Assembly: GCA_961205875.1 (NCBI GenBank)
Contig: OY540813.1
Location: 20,555,001 to 20,619,000 of the forward strand
Length of the DNA stretch: 64,000 nt
Source of the DNA: Sialis fuliginosa
Taxonomy: Eukaryota; Arthropoda; Insecta; Megaloptera; Sialidae
Direction: 5' to 3'
Below the pieces are notes generated by a model. It was given only the letters and a program-made list of their open reading frames with translations. It was not told the origin of the DNA and did no database searches. The position numbers were made by a program, and so were the translations under genes. Of the stretch, positions 4,641-62,655 are shown piece by piece; within the stretch, counting starts at the first letter, position 1; each line of letters opens with the position of its first letter.

Positions 4641-5950
4641 TCGGACTAGGGTGGTTTGTTAATTTATTTATTTAATATTTTGTTCACCAGAATGGTCTTT
4701 GAAACCTGATGTCCATTTGATAAAAAAATAATGAATCTTGGTATACCTATTGTGTTTCATTGTTTCTGATTCTAAACTTTACGAGGATAATTTGTGCTTT
4801 ATAAAAGCTGGAATCTCAAAACTTCCCTAAAAGAAAAAACATGACTGTCTTCTGGGTTCATTGTTAATTTTCTTTTTCAAATATTAATACCGTAATAAAA
4901 AAATAATAATGAAAATGCAACTGAGTGATCCATCTGACGACACTATTTAACAAAAACTTTACTTTTAAACATGAAATTAATCCGAAAGAAGTATAATAAT
5001 CAATAAAACAAAATTGTTTTTCTAAATTTAATATTAATGTTTCTATTAATATAATATGTACCTATATACTTTTTTAATTAAAATCCATTTATGAAAACGA
5101 TGCAATATTTCTATTAATGCAATAATGCAATTTTGCTATTTCATCAATACTGAAAACATACTGATAAAAGTATAAAGAGTTACATTATTTATTAATGAGA
5201 TACAAACTGGTAAATAATGATTTAAAAATCGCAACCTAATTATCGTCATTAATATACCATAAAGTCAATGATTTTATAATTACTAGTTTGATGAGCGTTA
5301 GTTTTGATATGAAACATTTAAAACAGAGCAGTCAACTGATGTCCCCATAGTCCAATACGTAATTGATCAAATAAACTGCTGTTTGTTTTAGTACAGTTAA
5401 ATTCTGTAAGCCAAATAATGTCGTTCGAAACTTGTTATTCTTTTTTATTAGATTGCTCGGTTTTATTAAAATGTGAAATGAAATCAGGGTTGTTTCCAAA
5501 CATAACGGTATTATAAAGTGCTTTTGTTTGTTTGTTTTCTATAACTTTTTGATTCAATTGTAGCAAGGATTTTATTCAATTCGAGATTATAACTACTTAA
5601 AGATGATTTTATAAGAAACAATAACTTGGTACGTTGTTGTTTATTTTGATTTGAAAATTAAGAGATATAATTTGTGGCAAAACTTTATTAATAATTCAAA
5701 TGGATTAAGTATACTTAAGTTTCAAACTTATTAATATTTTAATGGATTAGAAATAGTGATAGTATTTTGTTGTTCTTTTTTCAACATTTAGCTTATATTA
5801 ATGATATTTTATTTCTATCAAATAAATATTGTTAATAATATCTACATATATAGTTTTGAAGAACAGAACTGAGAAATACATAAATAAATAAACAAATAAA
5901 TAAATAAGAAAATATTAGAGAAAAACTTTAAAATTATATTTACTCAATTA
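4641..5950. other. AT-rich intergenic DNA, no gene seen
   Basis: Long stop-rich sequence in all frames. An (AAAT)n-like run (AATAAATAAACAAATAAATA) lies at about 5881-5906, directly before repeat copy B. Confidence 0.5.
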
Positions 5951-6676
5951 CAAGACATACGCGAGTGTATGCCATAAGGGTTCCGAAGTATGTAATACGT
6001 GGACTGTTTGGAGCTACTTACAGGTGCATTTTTGAGTTAAAAAAATGGTCATATTCTATTAATTGAGATGTACATTTCGTATCCTCACATACCTAGATAT
6101 GAAAATAAAAATGAAATTTTATGACACCCCTACCTATAATTCCAAAATTTAAAGATATATTGCTTACTTTAGTATTTGTCGTTGGTAGTCCCATCAAAGC
6201 CTCATTATCAAAAAAATTTCAGATTTTTCGAGCCAGTAGTTACAGAGTTAGAGGTGGTGGGACAAAATAAAATACTGCTTTTAGCCCCCTGGTGGTGCCA
6301 GTTTTGAGTTAAAAAAAATAAAAAATAGGGTCAAATTCTACTGATTGAGATCTACATTTTGATACCCCTCACGTCTTGGTATACAATTTTTTTATTTTTA
6401 TTTTTATTTGCTTGAAAGCCCCCTGCAGACAAATGGTCAAATTCCGCTTGTTTGGTTATACATTTTTTACGTAGCTTTAGCTCCTTAATGCCCTCCCCCC
6501 TGAAAAAATATTTTTTCAATAAATTTGTAAATTTTTACTAGAGGACATCGTTTTACATGTTCAGTTAAAATTTCAAGTTTCTAGCTTATATAGCTTACAA
6601 GCTATTTAGCTTTAAGTGATAAGGACGGACGGACGGACGTCAGAGTGAGATTAATAGGGTTTCTCCGGAACCCTAG
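5951..6676 (+). repeat. Dispersed repeat family R1, copy B
   Basis: Direct-orientation partner of 944-1672 about 5 kb away. The best preserved parts are the 5' end (CCATAAGGGTTCCGAAGTA), the central TTAGTATTTGTCGTTGGTAG and the 3' end AGGACGGACGGACGGACGTC..GAGATTAATAGGGTTTC. The pair does not look like LTRs: the ends are not TG..CA, there is no coding interior and additional copies exist elsewhere. Confidence 0.75.
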
Positions 6677-6800
6677 AAACTAATTTTTATAGATAGTATT
6701 TGAAAATATGAATGTAACTTTTGTTATTAAAGAAATAATTTAGATGTACTCATCGTATTCTATCGCCAAACGGTTGAATATATAACATTTCAAAATATTA

Positions 6801-8940
6801 GTACGTCTGGTACGTAAAAAAACCCTGCACTTTTTGATTGGGGTATGACACTTTCTGTGCTCATAGATAAGGTCAAAAGAATAATTTTCAGATAGGGAGC
6901 CACTTTAAAATCCGTGTAGAACACCATTATATCGGCTATTAAAGATGGCCCCCACCGTTTTTATTAAATTGGCTGTATCTCAGCTCCTAGTCATCTGATT
7001 TCAATTTTCTTTTGTTTGTTTTAAAGTTCTTATTGAGTAGATTATTTTTTGTCATTATTTATTTTTCTCTAAATCTTAAGGGTTCCCCACAATTTTCGAA
7101 AATCTGAAAATGTTACTTTTTTTACGAACTTAATTTTTATATAACTTTTTTATTGTGCCCAATATCATTTTTTTACATCATACAAAAAAGAAAGACATTT
7201 TTTTCTGCGTTCTATTGATAACAAGATAATACTGTTTTAATTAACAACTTCTTTGGAAAAAGTGTGTTAAACTAAGAAAAATAGACTATTTTTGGATCAT
7301 TCCATGTCAAGTTTACCTTTTATCATATGAAATTTTATGTTGGGATCAATTTTCTCATATGGTATAGCTAAAAAATTGAAAAATCTGTCATGGATGTCAC
7401 TGAACTTTCTTATACAATAAAAAAATGTACGTGTATCTACTAATATAAAACAAATAATTTTGGCTTACTGATGACAGATATAAAAAAATTAATAGAACAT
7501 AAACTATAGATAATAACGTTCTCTACATTTTTTGTTATAAACATTTCATTCTGTCATGAACTGGAAAAAAAATGGAAAAAAATAAAAAATTAAATAAAAA
7601 AGATTTTTTTTTAATTGGTAAGAGATACAAAAAAATTAATAGTAGATAAACTATAGAAAATAACGTTCTCTACATTTTTTGTTATAAACATTTCATTCTG
7701 TCATGAACTTGTTAAAAAAATGGAAAAAAATAAAAAATTAAATAAAAAAGATTTTTTTTAATTGGTAAGAGATACAAAAAAATTAATAGGACATAAACTA
7801 TAGATAATAACGTTCTCTACATTTTTTGTTATAAACATTTCGTTCTGTCATGAACTTATTCAAATAAAATGGAAAAAAATTAAAAATATAATTAAAAAGA
7901 TTTTTTTTTATTTGGTAAGAGATACAAAAAAATTAATGGAACATAAACTATAGAAAATAACGTACTCTACAACTTTTATTTCAATGATTTATTTCTGATT
8001 TAAGCCATTTCAAATATAATTGAAAAAAACGATTATAACCTCAAAAACTTTTTTTGGGAGAAATTGAACATAACATAAATTATAAATAATAATATTCTCA
8101 ACAAATTTTTCTTTAAACATTTTCTTCCAACATGTACCGTTTCAGAAATAATTCGAATAATTATAAAAATTACAAGAGTAAACATCCGTTTCCGGTTTTA
8201 AAAACATCAGGTTTTCTTTCTTAAAACAAATTAATCCTAAATATAAAATTTTACCTCTCTATGTACTGTAATTTTTGAGTTACAGCGTTTACAGACAAAT
8301 AGATACACACACAGACAGACAGACATACATGATGATAATAATAGTCAGAATTGATTCAGGGAAGGTATAAATGGACATTTCCATCAAAATCTTGAATCCG
8401 AGAAACCAATACAAGTAAACTTGACAGGTAATGATCCAAAAATAATCCTTTTTTCTTAGTTTAACACGCTATTTCCAAAGAAGTTGTTGATTAAAACAGT
8501 ATTATCTTGTTATCAATGGAACGCAGAAAAAAATGTCTTTCTTTTTTGTATGATGTAAAAAAATGATATTGGGCACAATAAAAAAGTTATATAAAAATTA
8601 AGTTCGTAAAAAAAGTAACATTTTCAGATTTTCGAAAATGGTGGGGAACCCTTAAGATTTAGAGAAAAATAAATAATGACAAAAAATAATCTACTCAATA
8701 AGAACTTTAAAACAAACAAAAGAAAATTGAAATCAGATGACTAGGAGCTGAGATACAGCCAATTTAATATAAACGGTGGGGGCCATCTTTAATAGCCGAT
8801 ATAATGGTGTTCTACACGGATTTTAAAGTGGCTCCGTATCTGAAAATCTTTCTTTTGACCTTATATATGACCACAGAAAGTGTCATACCCCAATCAAAAA
8901 GTGCAGCGTTTTGGCTTTATTTGCCACGAACCAGACGTAC
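6801..8940. mobile_element. 2.1-kb fold-back (long-TIR) element flanked by TA
   Basis: The left arm 6801-7315 and right arm 8416-8940 are highly similar inverted repeats. The left arm begins GTACGTCTGGTACGT and the right arm ends ACCAGACGTAC; shared interior landmarks include AGATGGCCCCCACCGT-type, TAGGAGCTGAGATACAGCC and AACTTCTTTGGAAA. The dinucleotide TA flanks both ends (6799-6800 and 8941-8942), consistent with Tc1/mariner-type insertion but not proof of it. The 1.1-kb loop holds a tandem array (7476-8170). An open frame at 8804-9088 runs out of the right arm into flanking DNA and looks accidental. No transposase is present. Confidence 0.8.
7476..8170 (+). repeat. 148-bp tandem array, about 4.7 units, in the fold-back loop
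   Basis: Units begin with AGATAYAAAAAAATTAATRG at about 7476, 7623, 7770 and 7920, giving periods near 147-150 bp, with a decayed fifth unit from about 8060. Each unit carries TATAGAWAATAACGTTCTC followed by TACATTTTTTGTTATAAAC. Units 1-3 are nearly identical; units 4 and 5 diverge progressively. Confidence 0.8.
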
Positions 8941-40399: not shown

Positions 40400-40534
40400 A
40401 AAAAAAGAAGCAATTAGTAAAAAGTATTGAAGTTAGTGGTGATATCTACAATTGCTTCCACTTTTTTTTTATTTGGTCCATTATTGTAAAAGTGCGCGAA
40501 TTTTTATTCATTATTGTGTTGATTAGTTGCATAT

Positions 40535-41084
40535 GTGCCAAAAAAAAATCGCTGTGTCTATCTTCTAAGTACATTACACCACGACACCAAAATTGGAGAA
40601 AGCCCCCTGAAAAAGCCTGAAATCATTGAATTTTACAATGCGACCAAGGCCGGAGTGGATACTTTGGACCAATTGGTTGGAACTTATAGTTGTAAGCGAA
40701 AGACCAATAGATGGCCTATGGCTCTTTTCAGCAATATGCTTGACATTTCTGCCTATAATGCCTACGTGATTTGGACTTTAATAAATCCAGAATGGAATAA
40801 GAAAAAACATTTCCGGCGTAGACTTTATCTAGAGCAATTGGGGCTAGATCTAGTTCATGATGAAATCCAACAGCGAACATCCCAGCCACATAGCTCAAAG
40901 GCCAAAGAGGTTGTACACATTATACAGCCTCAATATATATAAACAAAATTTAAAGAGAGCACGTTGTCACATGTGCCCAAACCTATCTAATAGCACTAAA
41001 TATGCTACAAAATGTACTTCGTGTAATTTATTTATATGCAAAACGCATTCATTTACTGAAATAACTTGTAAAAACTGTAAATGA
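40535..41084 (+). pseudogene. piggyBac-like transposase, C-terminal fragment, frameshifted
   Basis: Domain: DDE_Tnp_1_7 C-terminal part followed by a Cys-rich zinc domain. The first frame (40535-40942) reads ..KKNRCVYLLSTLHHDTKIGE, then KPEIIEFYNATKAGVDTLDQ, then TNRWPMALFSNMLD and AYNAYVIW. These are the conserved piggyBac blocks around the third catalytic Asp (the GVDxxDQ segment) and the RWP..F motif. The frame ends early at TAA 40940-40942. The C-terminal domain continues in another frame (to 41084) with CHMCPNLSNSTKYATKCTSC then CKTHSFTEITCKNCK, the Cys/His pattern of the piggyBac C-terminal zinc-binding domain. The N-terminal region and the first two catalytic Asp are absent, so it cannot act alone. 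The first codon at 40535 is GTG, not a true start. Confidence 0.9.
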
Positions 41085-55590: not shown

Positions 55591-55986
55591 GGAAATATTA
55601 ATTGTAAAATTTCCTTTTGACAAAAATTCAAACTTTATCTTCATATATTCGCTCCTCCCAACCATCTAACAAAACAAGCTTCATTTCAATTCACGGAATG
55701 AAAAATATTTATTTTGAACAGAAATTTTAAGTGAAAATTTTGAATTCGGAGACCAAAAATTTGTTCACATTCCTTTCGTTTATCTATTGGATATAAATGG
55801 CGAGGGAACAATTTTGCCTGAAAAAAAATATTTTTTGGTATTAAAAAAGTTTTTCCAGTGACCAAAAAATAATTGTTTGAATAAAAAAACTTTTAACTAT
55901 TTTCATATAGTTACAATAACAAAATATGCGTAGTCAATACCTTATTATTGTAAGCACAAAATATTTTTGTGTAAGATAGAAAACTA
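55591..55986. other. AT-rich DNA flanking the palindrome
   Basis: Nothing recognised. Confidence 0.45.
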
Positions 55987-56185
55987 TCACTAAACTAAAA
56001 ATACACCTTAACCACAAAAATTAATGTCACTCGACACGTGTTTCGACTTCACAAGAAGTCCTCATCAGGAGCCAAACGATTCCAGTCTGGAATCGTTTGG
56101 CTCCTGATGAGGACTTCTTGTGAAGTCGAAACACGTGTCGAGTGACATTAATTTTTGTGGTTAAGGTGTATTTTTAGTTTAGTGA
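55987..56185. mobile_element. Perfect 99-bp-arm palindrome carrying hammerhead-like motifs
   Basis: Arms 55987-56085 and 56087-56185 are exact reverse complements around a single T at 56086. ACTA occurs at both edges (55983-55986 and 56185-56188), a possible small target duplication. Each arm contains, reading outward from the centre, CTCCTGATGAGGACTTCTTG then TGAAGTCGAAACACGTGTCG. This arrangement (CUGAUGA, hairpin, GAAAC) is that of a hammerhead ribozyme core. The exact identity of the arms indicates a recent insertion or recent gene conversion. Confidence 0.85.
56100..56144 (+). ncRNA. Hammerhead-ribozyme-like motif (mirror copy on minus strand)
   Basis: The core is CUGAUGA at 56104-56110. 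Stem II is GACUUC/GAAGUC (56112-56117 with 56122-56127) with loop UUGU. GAAA is at 56128-56131. Stem III is tiny (A-U and C-G around ACGU), and the predicted cleavage base C is at 56139 after GU. Stem I is GAGU (56140-56143) pairing with GCUC (56100-56103). All conserved core bases are present. The deviation is one extra G (56111) between the core and stem II. Short stem III is known from hammerheads of Penelope-like and related retroelements, which act as dimers. The inverted arm gives the same motif on the minus strand. Confidence 0.4.
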
Positions 56186-59100
56186 CTAAGAAACCACAGT
56201 TTCTCCGTTTTTCAAGTAATAGAAAACTATATTTTATTATTGTTATAATCGAAATATCAAATGCATATTCGAATACATTTTTTCACTATCCCAAGTCAAC
56301 ATAACAAACTCACATTTTTTGTTGCACCAACTAATTCTCTTATTTCATGGTACTATAAACACAAAACACACTACACAGAACTCCTGGTGGTTTAAAAATA
56401 TAGATTGTCAGCGAAACAAAGTAAAGACTAAAAAAATAACATTGTACAGACAAACCCTACATAATTTTTATTCACTAGCTTACACGATTATATCGACAAT
56501 ATATGTACATATATATAGTTACTGGTTGTGAAATGATATAATGTGTTGTAGATAAAAGAAGATTGCAAGTTTCTTATATTATATACAACATTATTTTACT
56601 GTACCTCTTTTAAAAATAATTTTATTTATCATCGTTAAATGCTATTACAGTAAGTCTTAATTTTTATACCGGATCCAAAAAAAAAGTTTATATAATAATG
56701 TTTTTATCCAATACAATATCCAATCTATTAATTTTTTCTTACAAACTTATAGTGATATGTTTTTTTTATACAATACAACAGAGTAAATAAATAAATAAAT
56801 GGAAAAATTATGATACAAAATTAGGATCTGATTGTTGATATGCCTGAGGTTGGCGAACCCGGTCCCTCCGGGGGCACCTGGTCTAGAGGGGCGGTAAAAT
56901 AGGTGAAAAAAGCATGATGAGTTTTCAGAAATCGAAAGTTATTTTGATGTAGCTACGAAAAAAGGTAATCAAAAGTAATTTGAGGCGCAAATGGGTTGCA
57001 AATGAGGAAAAATTAAGGTACAAAACTATAATGTATAACTACGACGCTGTATTCATTATAAATTCTTACTTAATTTAAACTTAAGTACATTTTAAATGAA
57101 CACACATTAGATTATTTTTTAAAATCAAAAACGGAAGATCGATGAGTTCAAACAGTCAGTTGGAGTGTTTTATATCAAGATTGTGAGCAAACAGATTCGT
57201 TTAAATTTACATGATCATATGAAAGAAGATTCAAAGTAAAATGGAAACTATTACTCCATTAAAAATATAATAAATTTTATGATATCTCACGCATCAAATA
57301 CAAAACTGTATATTTTATTCATGTGCGAAACTTTCTTCCTGCACAATGATAAAAAGAAGACTTGGGAAAATTGGTATGTAGGTACGTATTTTTACGTAAA
57401 TAATTCTGCCTTAACCAAAGGCGGTGGTTATACATAATGCTATATCGGAAAAAATAAGTTATAAATAGTATGTGTAAAAATATCATATTGTGGTGTATAC
57501 ATTTAAGCAATTTTCCAGATGATATCTTCCCCTTATTCTATATTCTATGCTCTTGTGTGTACTCGGATTTAAATTCAGTGTTGTAGTTATTTTGAGGAAA
57601 ATGTAGTAAATGTATTTTTATAATATAATTTCACAAGTTAGTATCAGTTCCAAAAAAACTGTATTGGTGACGAAAAATATTCTAAAAAATTTTTTTTCAA
57701 ATGTATACAATGCATTAAAATTTACTTCTAATTTAAATATTTATTTTATTTTGTAATGTATTTTAACACTAAACAATACACATGAATCCCCTTTTGTTAA
57801 ATAACGTTCAAATCTCATAATAATAATAAACATTTAAAATAAACTAACATCTTGTATAAAAGAATTAGCCTTAAAAAATTAAGTTGAAATTAGGTATAAC
57901 ATAAATGAATATTTAGACTAGATTAATAATTTGTAAAATTCAAATTGATTATATTATGTCATATTTTATTTTATCTAATTTGAACATTTTTGTAAAAAGA
58001 TACAACAAAATAAATAAATAAATCTAATGTAGTTATATTTTCAGTATTCATAGTTTATATCATATTTATTAAATTTACTATTGAAGCTTTTATATGTATA
58101 TATTAAATTATTATATAGGTAGAGATGTAGAATTATATTCACTAGAAATATTTACAATATAAAACCCGCCACTGGTGTGCACATACTTTAAAGGGATTTT
58201 CATATCATAAAAGCAATATATAATTCTTTATAAATATACACTATGCAGCTCCACATTGTATGACATATTAAGTAAATATGTAGGTCGGCTCTATTTATCT
58301 TGGTAAATTAATGTTTTCATTATAACATAATACTTTAAAACAGGCACAGTGTTTAAAGAAAATACAGCGTATAAATAAATTACAGAAATTAATGAAAATC
58401 ATTTAAAACGACGGAGCATTTAATAATATAATTTTGTTCCATTTTTGAAATAAATATAAAATAAAATTATTTGTAATAATATAAAAAGTAATTAATCTTA
58501 TTATACGCATACATTGATATGTACGAATTTTACTTTATTGTTATTGTTTGATAAATTATAAACTATCAGAGTTTTTTGTGAGAATTTCTTACTTTTTAGG
58601 TTTTTTTATATACATTTAAAGAGAGATATCAACAGCAATTTTAACGAAATATTGGTAAATCTTGAAGTAACTGAACCAAGAATAGTTGTAAGAAAGTAGT
58701 AAGAAGCACATGTCAATATATGTAATGATTAACCTACTCATCAACGCCCAGAATAAATCACTGGACCTGGAAACTTGAAATGCAAAGAGAAAAGGATGTT
58801 AATATTTTTATATGGTTCTTTGCATAATTGCTTATACATACATATTACATATTATAGAAGTGAATTTAGGATAATATATTTTTCTATTAAAATAAAATCA
58901 CACGTGTATTGCGATTTTTCAATGCTCTACCTAATAAGGTTAAAACATTGTCAAAGCTGCGGATGGGCCTCTAGTTATAATATAAAATAATAATATTACA
59001 TACAGAATGTACCAGTTACTAGATAGGGACTTAAAATAGCAGCTTTCTGCACTATCTTTAAATATTTAAAATGTCATGGGTGACGTTCATTGACAACAAA

Positions 59101-62304: not shown

Positions 62305-62655
62305 GATACTTTTAAATACTTTGAAACCTAGGATATAATTAAATTATTTAATCAATTTAAAAAAGTACAGATCCGTATTAAGTGATATTTGAAGCTCTTA
62401 ATATTAAATTAGATATTCACATAAACTATATAGAAACCTTGGATATAATTTAATCAACTTAAAAAAGTAGTCCACATGCGTAATAAGTGATATTTTAGGT
62501 CCCTACTGTCAAAAAATATCATATTCACCTAAACTTTATGGAAACCTTGAATATATTATCATCAATTTAAAAATTGTCCAGCTGCGCATTAAGTGATGTT
62601 TTAAGCCACTATACTGTTAAAATATCATATTCATATAATCTATATGGAAACAATA
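62305..62655 (+). repeat. About 108-bp tandem array, three diverged units
   Basis: GAAACC anchors occur at 62323, 62433 and 62541, with a decayed fourth (GAAAC) at 62646: periods 110, 108 and 105. Units share GATATAATT..AATCAAYTTAAAAA, GTAATAAGTGATATTTTAGG-like and ATATCATATTCAYMTAAACT blocks. Confidence 0.75.

Follow-up and report, generated by a model that had tools for sequence, protein, structure and literature searches.

A perfect palindrome with hammerhead-like cores in Sialis fuliginosa looks like a short two-armed insertion of a Penelope-like element

Within a stretch of 64,000 nucleotides of the megalopteran insect Sialis fuliginosa (assembly GCA_961205875.1, contig OY540813.1, positions 20,555,001 to 20,619,000; hereafter the window), a palindrome of 99 + 1 + 99 bp carries a hammerhead-like core in each arm. 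Comparison with its copies across the genome suggests that a Penelope-like element (PLE) left it as a short insertion with two arms, each a copy of the element's terminal repeat (pLTR). In 42 out of 43 two-armed loci exactly one arm was followed by a tail, on the left in 21 and on the right in 21. With independent tails, at most half of the loci would be one-tailed, and the chance of 42 or more out of 43 is 5e-12. Taken together with an unequal cut-back of the arms at the centre, this pattern favours two cDNAs primed from two adjacent internal start sites. The one-tail rule, counted over many copies, is what this analysis adds.

The palindrome with its two cores is real. Its arms (55987-56085 and 56087-56185) are 99 nt each, 100% complementary and separated by one nucleotide (56086), as the original prediction had stated. 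The centre reads CCAG-T-CTGG, with a 3-nt CAG/CTG overlap of the arms. The predicted limits of 55987 to 56185 describe the palindrome correctly and fall short of the insertion: the right arm leads into a 34-nt PLE tail (56186-56219, + strand), absent from the left arm, and a 12-bp target duplication surrounds the whole. A common 12-nt word at 55976-55987 and 56219-56230 bounds it; the last base of the left duplication (ATAGAAAACTAT) may belong to the arm and the first base of the right one to the tail. Judged by comparison of copies from the whole genome, the right arm (+ strand) is probably a direct copy of the terminal repeat and the left arm (- strand) an untailed inverted copy, which would run from near the presumed RNA 5′ end at the centre to the proximal start of reverse transcription at its outer end. 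A stem-loop AGAAAC-CACA-GTTTCT is predicted in the tail (56189-56204, +). The palindrome thus looks like the outcome of an insertion. A Helitron-like reading of its ends was dropped given the 34-nt tail and the target duplications.

The identity of the element was indicated by a longer copy on contig 14 (L080), in which open frames are flanked on either side by the arm repeat. One frame matched RVT_1 (E 6.2e-15, 55.9 bits, cutoff 29.6). Another, divided from this reverse transcriptase (RT) frame by a frame break, matched GIY-YIG below the cutoff of 22.6 (E 8.3e-4, 20.1 bits) and shows literal GIY and YIG motifs. Beyond the 5′ repeat there is an inverted 1.2-kb copy without tail, and the next ATG lies downstream of the tail. 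This layout argues for an endonuclease-containing PLE. Among the features by which PLEs are recognised, pLTRs (tandem and/or inverted), a tail of 30-40 nt on one pLTR end (here 34 nt) and short target duplications were found. The hint at PLEs in the original prediction was well placed. L080 is flanked on its minus strand (L080:643-1785 and 5899-7352) by frames with retroviral-type RT and zinc-knuckle motifs, and this PLE copy seems to sit inside an element of the long terminal repeat (LTR) type.

The animal's own genome (392 Mb, 20 contigs) was searched for further copies. The 99-nt arm gave at least 63 matches (40 of 364 candidates scored), while a 24-nt core word with up to 3 mismatches was present at 2332 sites (1151 + 1181) and its reversed control at none. 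Palindromic and single-arm copies were recovered, two of the three forms for which this search had been proposed. The third form is tandem, and in the passages available from PMC7761336 non-LTR retrozymes are defined by tandem units of 150-300 bp; no such units, measured from hammerhead to hammerhead, were seen among the 100 places listed of the 2332 (all on contig 1), where 14 pairs lay less than 250 nt apart and all 14 were head-to-head. The two-armed copies continue at one outer end into the 34-nt tail (CTAAG...AAGTAA) and stop at the other at ...TTTAGTGA or a few bases earlier.

Copies of subfamily A were collected with the 3′ part of the arm (43 nt, up to 3 mismatches, ungapped), a pattern that misses copies, L080 among them, in which an indel interrupts this part. 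It gave 79 sites. After sites less than 2 kb apart had been joined and a duplicated pair on contig 11 had been counted once, 53 insertions remained, 35 two-armed and 18 one-armed; all 53 were examined. The 43 two-armed loci are these 35, L080 and seven loci of subfamily B with a partner arm in the examined DNA. Left out were six further loci of subfamily B that are one-armed or whose far end lies beyond the examined DNA (L064, L065, L068, L069, L075, L078), three A-like one-armed loci (L083, L086, L088) and 16 listed rows without a locus, some of which are partner arms or lie near included places. At the one-armed L088, an inverted tail fragment was apparently kept at the other end. Some copies occur in duplicate. 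The same palindromic insertion with its near flanks stands twice, 1.46 kb apart, on contig 11 (L010, 1576500-1579600), probably as a tandem segment duplication. Two subfamily B palindromes (G000:C14:1468885 and C14:1693254) share an unusual centre, one arm having been shortened near GTGTGTCGAG or GTGTGTCAAG, and are probably one duplicated insertion.

The one-armed insertions of subfamily A, read by eye, comprised 5 tailed and 13 untailed ones; among the latter, the opposite end of L038, L043 and L092 retains a short piece of tail in inverted orientation, and that of L034 a long T-tract. In subfamily B, exact gapped patterns applied to the whole genome found 34 one-tailed palindromes (18 + 16) and no two-tailed ones at a similar geometry, the second word of the two-tailed pattern being somewhat more easily lost by mutation (16 letters versus 14). 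One tail per two-armed insertion was not found stated as a rule in the passages of the open-licence literature that were searched. Those of PMC8969392 and PMC12910113 held nothing on such a rule; PMC8969392 mentions inverted pLTRs and short 3′ extensions.

The centres of the insertions were measured at 31 subfamily A junctions (L039 included, L011 without seed). The centre CCAG(A/T)CTGG with the 3-nt overlap, as in the window, recurred at 8 of them. This recurring centre is evidence of microhomology, while overlaps of 0-2 nt alone are not. At L082 the arms join, by eye, at a longer shared word, and L048 is a perfect palindrome of 960 nt (100%) with CCGG at its centre. Inner ends were read on 95 subfamily A arms of at least 25 nt that reach position 90 (the duplicated L010 counted twice): 57 fell between -4 and +5 relative to the unit start, 18 further upstream and 20 were cut back. 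The arms vary in their central cut-back. The inner ends cluster at TC[A]GTCTGG, and about 31 nt before it longer copies contain the TATA-like TATATATATAGG. TCAGT is the arthropod initiator. The TATA-like stretch and the initiator-like start together most likely place one end of the arm at the RNA 5′ end and the other at the internal start sites, and the RNA 5′ end is inferred to lie near TCAGTCTGG.

Target duplications were detected by script in 31 of the 43 two-armed loci, with lengths of 11 bp (five loci), 12 bp (22), 13 bp (three) and 14 bp (one). When the insertions were oriented with the tailed end to the right, the first base beyond the left edge was C in 16 of 31 and the first beyond the right edge was G in 12; these edges are biased by the choice of the longest common word and permit no firm conclusion on a motif. 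A-tracts of up to about 58 nt (T-tracts in reverse) follow the tail end immediately or replace it in L014, L015, L016, L020, L024, L034 and L043, and those of L024, L034 and L043 lie inside the target duplication. They are perhaps due to slippage at the tailed start site.

In the hammerhead-like core of the right arm (56101-56142, + strand), CTGATGA (56104-56110) is followed by one extra G (56111), stem II (GACTTC/GAAGTC, 56112-56117/56122-56127), GAAA (56128-56131), a minimal stem III, GTC (56137-56139) and stem I (CTC/GAG), with a predicted cut at 56139|56140. The conserved core and the three-helix layout of a type I hammerhead are thus present in the arm apart from the extra G before stem II, which occurs in every aligned copy. 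Both this G and the minimal stem III had been read correctly in the original prediction. The Rfam model search proposed there found Hammerhead_1 in both arms (56101-56142, +, and 56030-56071, -; 39 of 45 model positions), at 17.7 bits each and hence below the gathering score of 34; a scan of the window at gathering thresholds gave no match. Stronger Rfam matches on the palindrome belonged to several microRNA families. They were absent when a single arm was searched and were rejected as expected from any perfect hairpin.

When the 48-nt core was folded alone, stem II formed and the full hammerhead fold did not, and the energy was close to that of shuffles (z -0.14). The energy folding lends the hammerhead no support; motifs stabilised by tertiary contacts often fail such folding when taken alone. 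Between the majority sequences of subfamilies A and B, the 42-nt core showed 0 differences in 42 positions and its surroundings 11 in 95 (Fisher p 0.018). Within subfamily A, 10 substitutions were counted in 2898 letters of the core and 81 in 4953 letters of the flanks. These counts suggest that the hammerhead motif is kept in the arms. The covariation of stem II expected among genomic copies was not visible between the two subfamily majorities, no other family being compared; it cannot be demonstrated there because the core does not vary between them. One of the 95 arms starts within 1 nt of the predicted cut (position 54), namely L089 at 55, by an internal loss. The ribozyme leaves no visible trace in the arm ends. 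Since arms almost never start at the cut site, the template was usually an uncut RNA.

We consider it likely that a minimal PLE insertion is made by two cDNAs, one from each side of a staggered cut, which are joined at their RNA-5′ ends. The element's enzyme would nick the two target strands at points offset by about 12 nt, leaving 3′ overhangs, and each target 3′ end would prime a cDNA on the element RNA. Priming would occur at two adjacent internal start sites just before the open reading frame (ORF), one beyond the tail hairpin at GTAA in the tail and one before the hairpin at GTGA. Both cDNAs would grow by about 100-135 nt and stop close to the 5′ end of the RNA, and the hammerhead between start site and 5′ end would be copied along uncut. 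Joining of the cDNA 3′ ends, often at CAG/CTG, would then yield a head-to-head palindrome with a single tail. According to the available passages of PMC11167929, a purified PLE enzyme cuts and extends both strands and starts reverse transcription internally, at two sites bracketing the tail. Whether PLE insertion goes further and is an obligately asymmetric, two-ended reverse transcription, in which an enzyme dimer uses one RNA with one start site per strand and the host joins the ends, appears to us an even bet. If so, every complete event would pair a tailed with an untailed cDNA; stubs would come from mRNA with start sites about 100-135 nt from the 5′ end, and long copies would need a tandem transcript.

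Several observations weigh against an origin from two joined cDNAs, besides the longer second word of the two-tailed pattern. The 43rd two-armed locus, L039, has tail sequence at both ends; it combines an A arm with a B-like one bearing a damaged tail, showed no target duplication and looks like a composite of two subfamilies. When subfamily B palindromes were taken regardless of tail, 50 were obtained, 29 of them by coordinates among the 34 one-tailed ones, and 21 of the 50 had no exact tail word on either side, which may reflect mutation, another tail variant or true absence. Twelve of the 43 loci had no target duplication inside the limits of the script; five of these (L024, L035, L037, L079, L081) match just outside the limits or beyond an A-tract, and for the remaining ones none was found. 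Overlaps of 2 nt (two junctions), 1 nt (eight) and 0 nt (four), 14 of 31 in all, resemble chance joins and are no evidence of microhomology. Inserts or length differences were present at 9 of the 31 junctions, among them a difference in arm length at L026, a complex case at L032 and, at L023 and L089, what look like losses inside one of the arms near the usual centre. The cut-back of arms could stem from later deletion of an unstable palindrome. The shared centre partly accounts for the commonest inner end, -3, and the RNA 5′ end was placed from DNA only. On the supporting side, arms of the same insertion differed by 1.0% and arms of different insertions by 3.9%, with 0 of 20000 permutations as low (32 loci); the test mixes the two subfamilies, so that part of the contrast lies between these. 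In many loci, other copies are as close as the partner arm or closer. The likeness of the arms would fit one source copy and not necessarily one molecule, and gene conversion within the palindrome could add to it.

The alternative preferred in the passages available from PMC3846280, on an antisense template, is self-priming: the end of one cDNA or antisense RNA would fold back on itself, its copying would give a hairpin, and any asymmetry would arise by later deletion. Some palindromes are perfectly symmetric, among them the 960 nt of L048, and the same centre recurs in 8 of 31 junctions, both of which agree with such a fold-back, as does the favour it enjoys in this PLE literature. However, the fold-back of a tailed cDNA should repeat the tail, and a single tail was found in 42 of 43 loci and by 34 to 0 in subfamily B. 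A fold-back at the common centre would leave a loop of a single base, and such a hairpin is an implausible self-primer; pairing at CAG/CTG is possible, by contrast, between two single strands of identical sequence. Moreover, L025, L027 and L101, in which one arm is shortened to about 30-40 nt, keep a target duplication of 12-13 bp and the outer end of that arm. Self-priming is therefore regarded as unlikely, and two joined cDNAs remain the preferred origin.

The original prediction had seen in the inverted repeat a means of bringing two ribozymes together; on such a reading, the repeat of one mobile unit would be selected so that they act jointly. The core is indeed conserved more than its surroundings, but this conservation belongs to the arm and is present in one-armed copies too. 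The two cores lie on opposite strands, so that one transcript contains one ribozyme motif and its antisense. The RNA of the whole insertion is predicted to form a hairpin of 98-99 bp (-182 kcal/mol compared to -48.5 for shuffles), which would hide both cores, and the single arm end near the cut coincides with an internal loss. A ribozyme-pairing role of the palindrome was rejected on the strand layout and the hairpin fold, and we hold the two-ribozyme unit to be very improbable. A collapsed or inverted read, suggested by the fact that perfect palindromes are hard to assemble and judged here from the assembly, is hardly credible, since the many copies vary in their target duplications, centres and lengths. 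The palindromic shape and the flanking duplications would also suit a foldback or MITE-like DNA transposon with long terminal inverted repeats. Its probability is close to nil: the outer ends are unequal with a tail on only one of them (42 of 43), the arms lose their inner and not their outer ends, and longer copies enter the PLE open frame. It was rejected on these unequal ends and this frame.

The palindrome is thus a known kind of element in a PLE-rich genome, and its layout is already known. The models of PLE integration, and of the frequent inversion of PLE repeats, are in dispute, with self-priming in the available passages of PMC3846280 and extension of both strands in vitro in those of PMC11167929. 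The thousands of arm-core copies (2332 sites) are a natural data set for separating these models, and the observed pattern hints that the two start sites are coupled, an idea open to experiment. A further suggestion, relevant to the role of the hammerhead, is that new copies usually inherit it uncut.

Elsewhere in the window, two tandem arrays were noted, a satellite-like one at 7476-8029 (147-bp unit, about 3.7 copies) and one at 62349-62651 (106-bp unit, about 2.9 copies). An open frame of 139 aa at 40523-40942 (+) matched DDE_Tnp_1_7 (E 1.6e-11) and is presumably a fragment of a piggyBac-type transposase.

In LINE-1 twin priming, two cDNAs from two target ends meet at an inverted junction. 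To our knowledge, LINE-1 inversions do not repeat the 3′ end, whereas both arms of the Sialis PLE end at nearly the same RNA site. The minimal type I hammerheads of PLEs, whose role is called unknown in the available passages of PMC7761336, share with the Sialis arms the conserved core, the very short stem III and the location in the pLTR; the Sialis core, a putative ribozyme, differs by its extra G before stem II and its score below the Rfam gathering threshold. For Poseidon PAc of Anolis carolinensis, passages of PMC11167929 describe, as proposed here, two internal RT starts bracketing the tail and an AC-rich stem-loop at the start, together with cutting and extension of both DNA strands and a hammerhead near the pLTR-ORF junction, the cleavage of which is not required for insertion in vitro. 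No strand difference in the start site was seen for Poseidon PAc, and its RT start lies inside the ORF, whereas 42 of 43 Sialis loci pair a tailed with an untailed end and in L080 the tail stands before the first following ATG. The closest resemblance in layout is described for the PLEs of Adineta vaga (Pen2a_Av and others) in passages of PMC3846280. Like the Sialis element, these have an ORF with RT, pLTRs with an adjacent inverted pLTR, head-to-head palindromes at the inverted junction and TATA- and initiator-like pLTR motifs; their ORF also has a GIY-YIG domain, for which the Sialis element has a candidate below the cutoff; a tail of 31 bp is optionally present on one inverted pLTR and target duplications measure 8-10 bp. 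The palindrome with its two cores stands, while the novelty claimed for it in the original prediction does not, head-to-head tailed pLTRs having been described there. In Sialis, by comparison, the tail has 34 nt, the duplications mostly 12 bp and the repeated arm about 100 nt, to which the tail is added; many copies are mere stubs of two arms that lack an ORF, and the one-tail pattern was counted over many copies.
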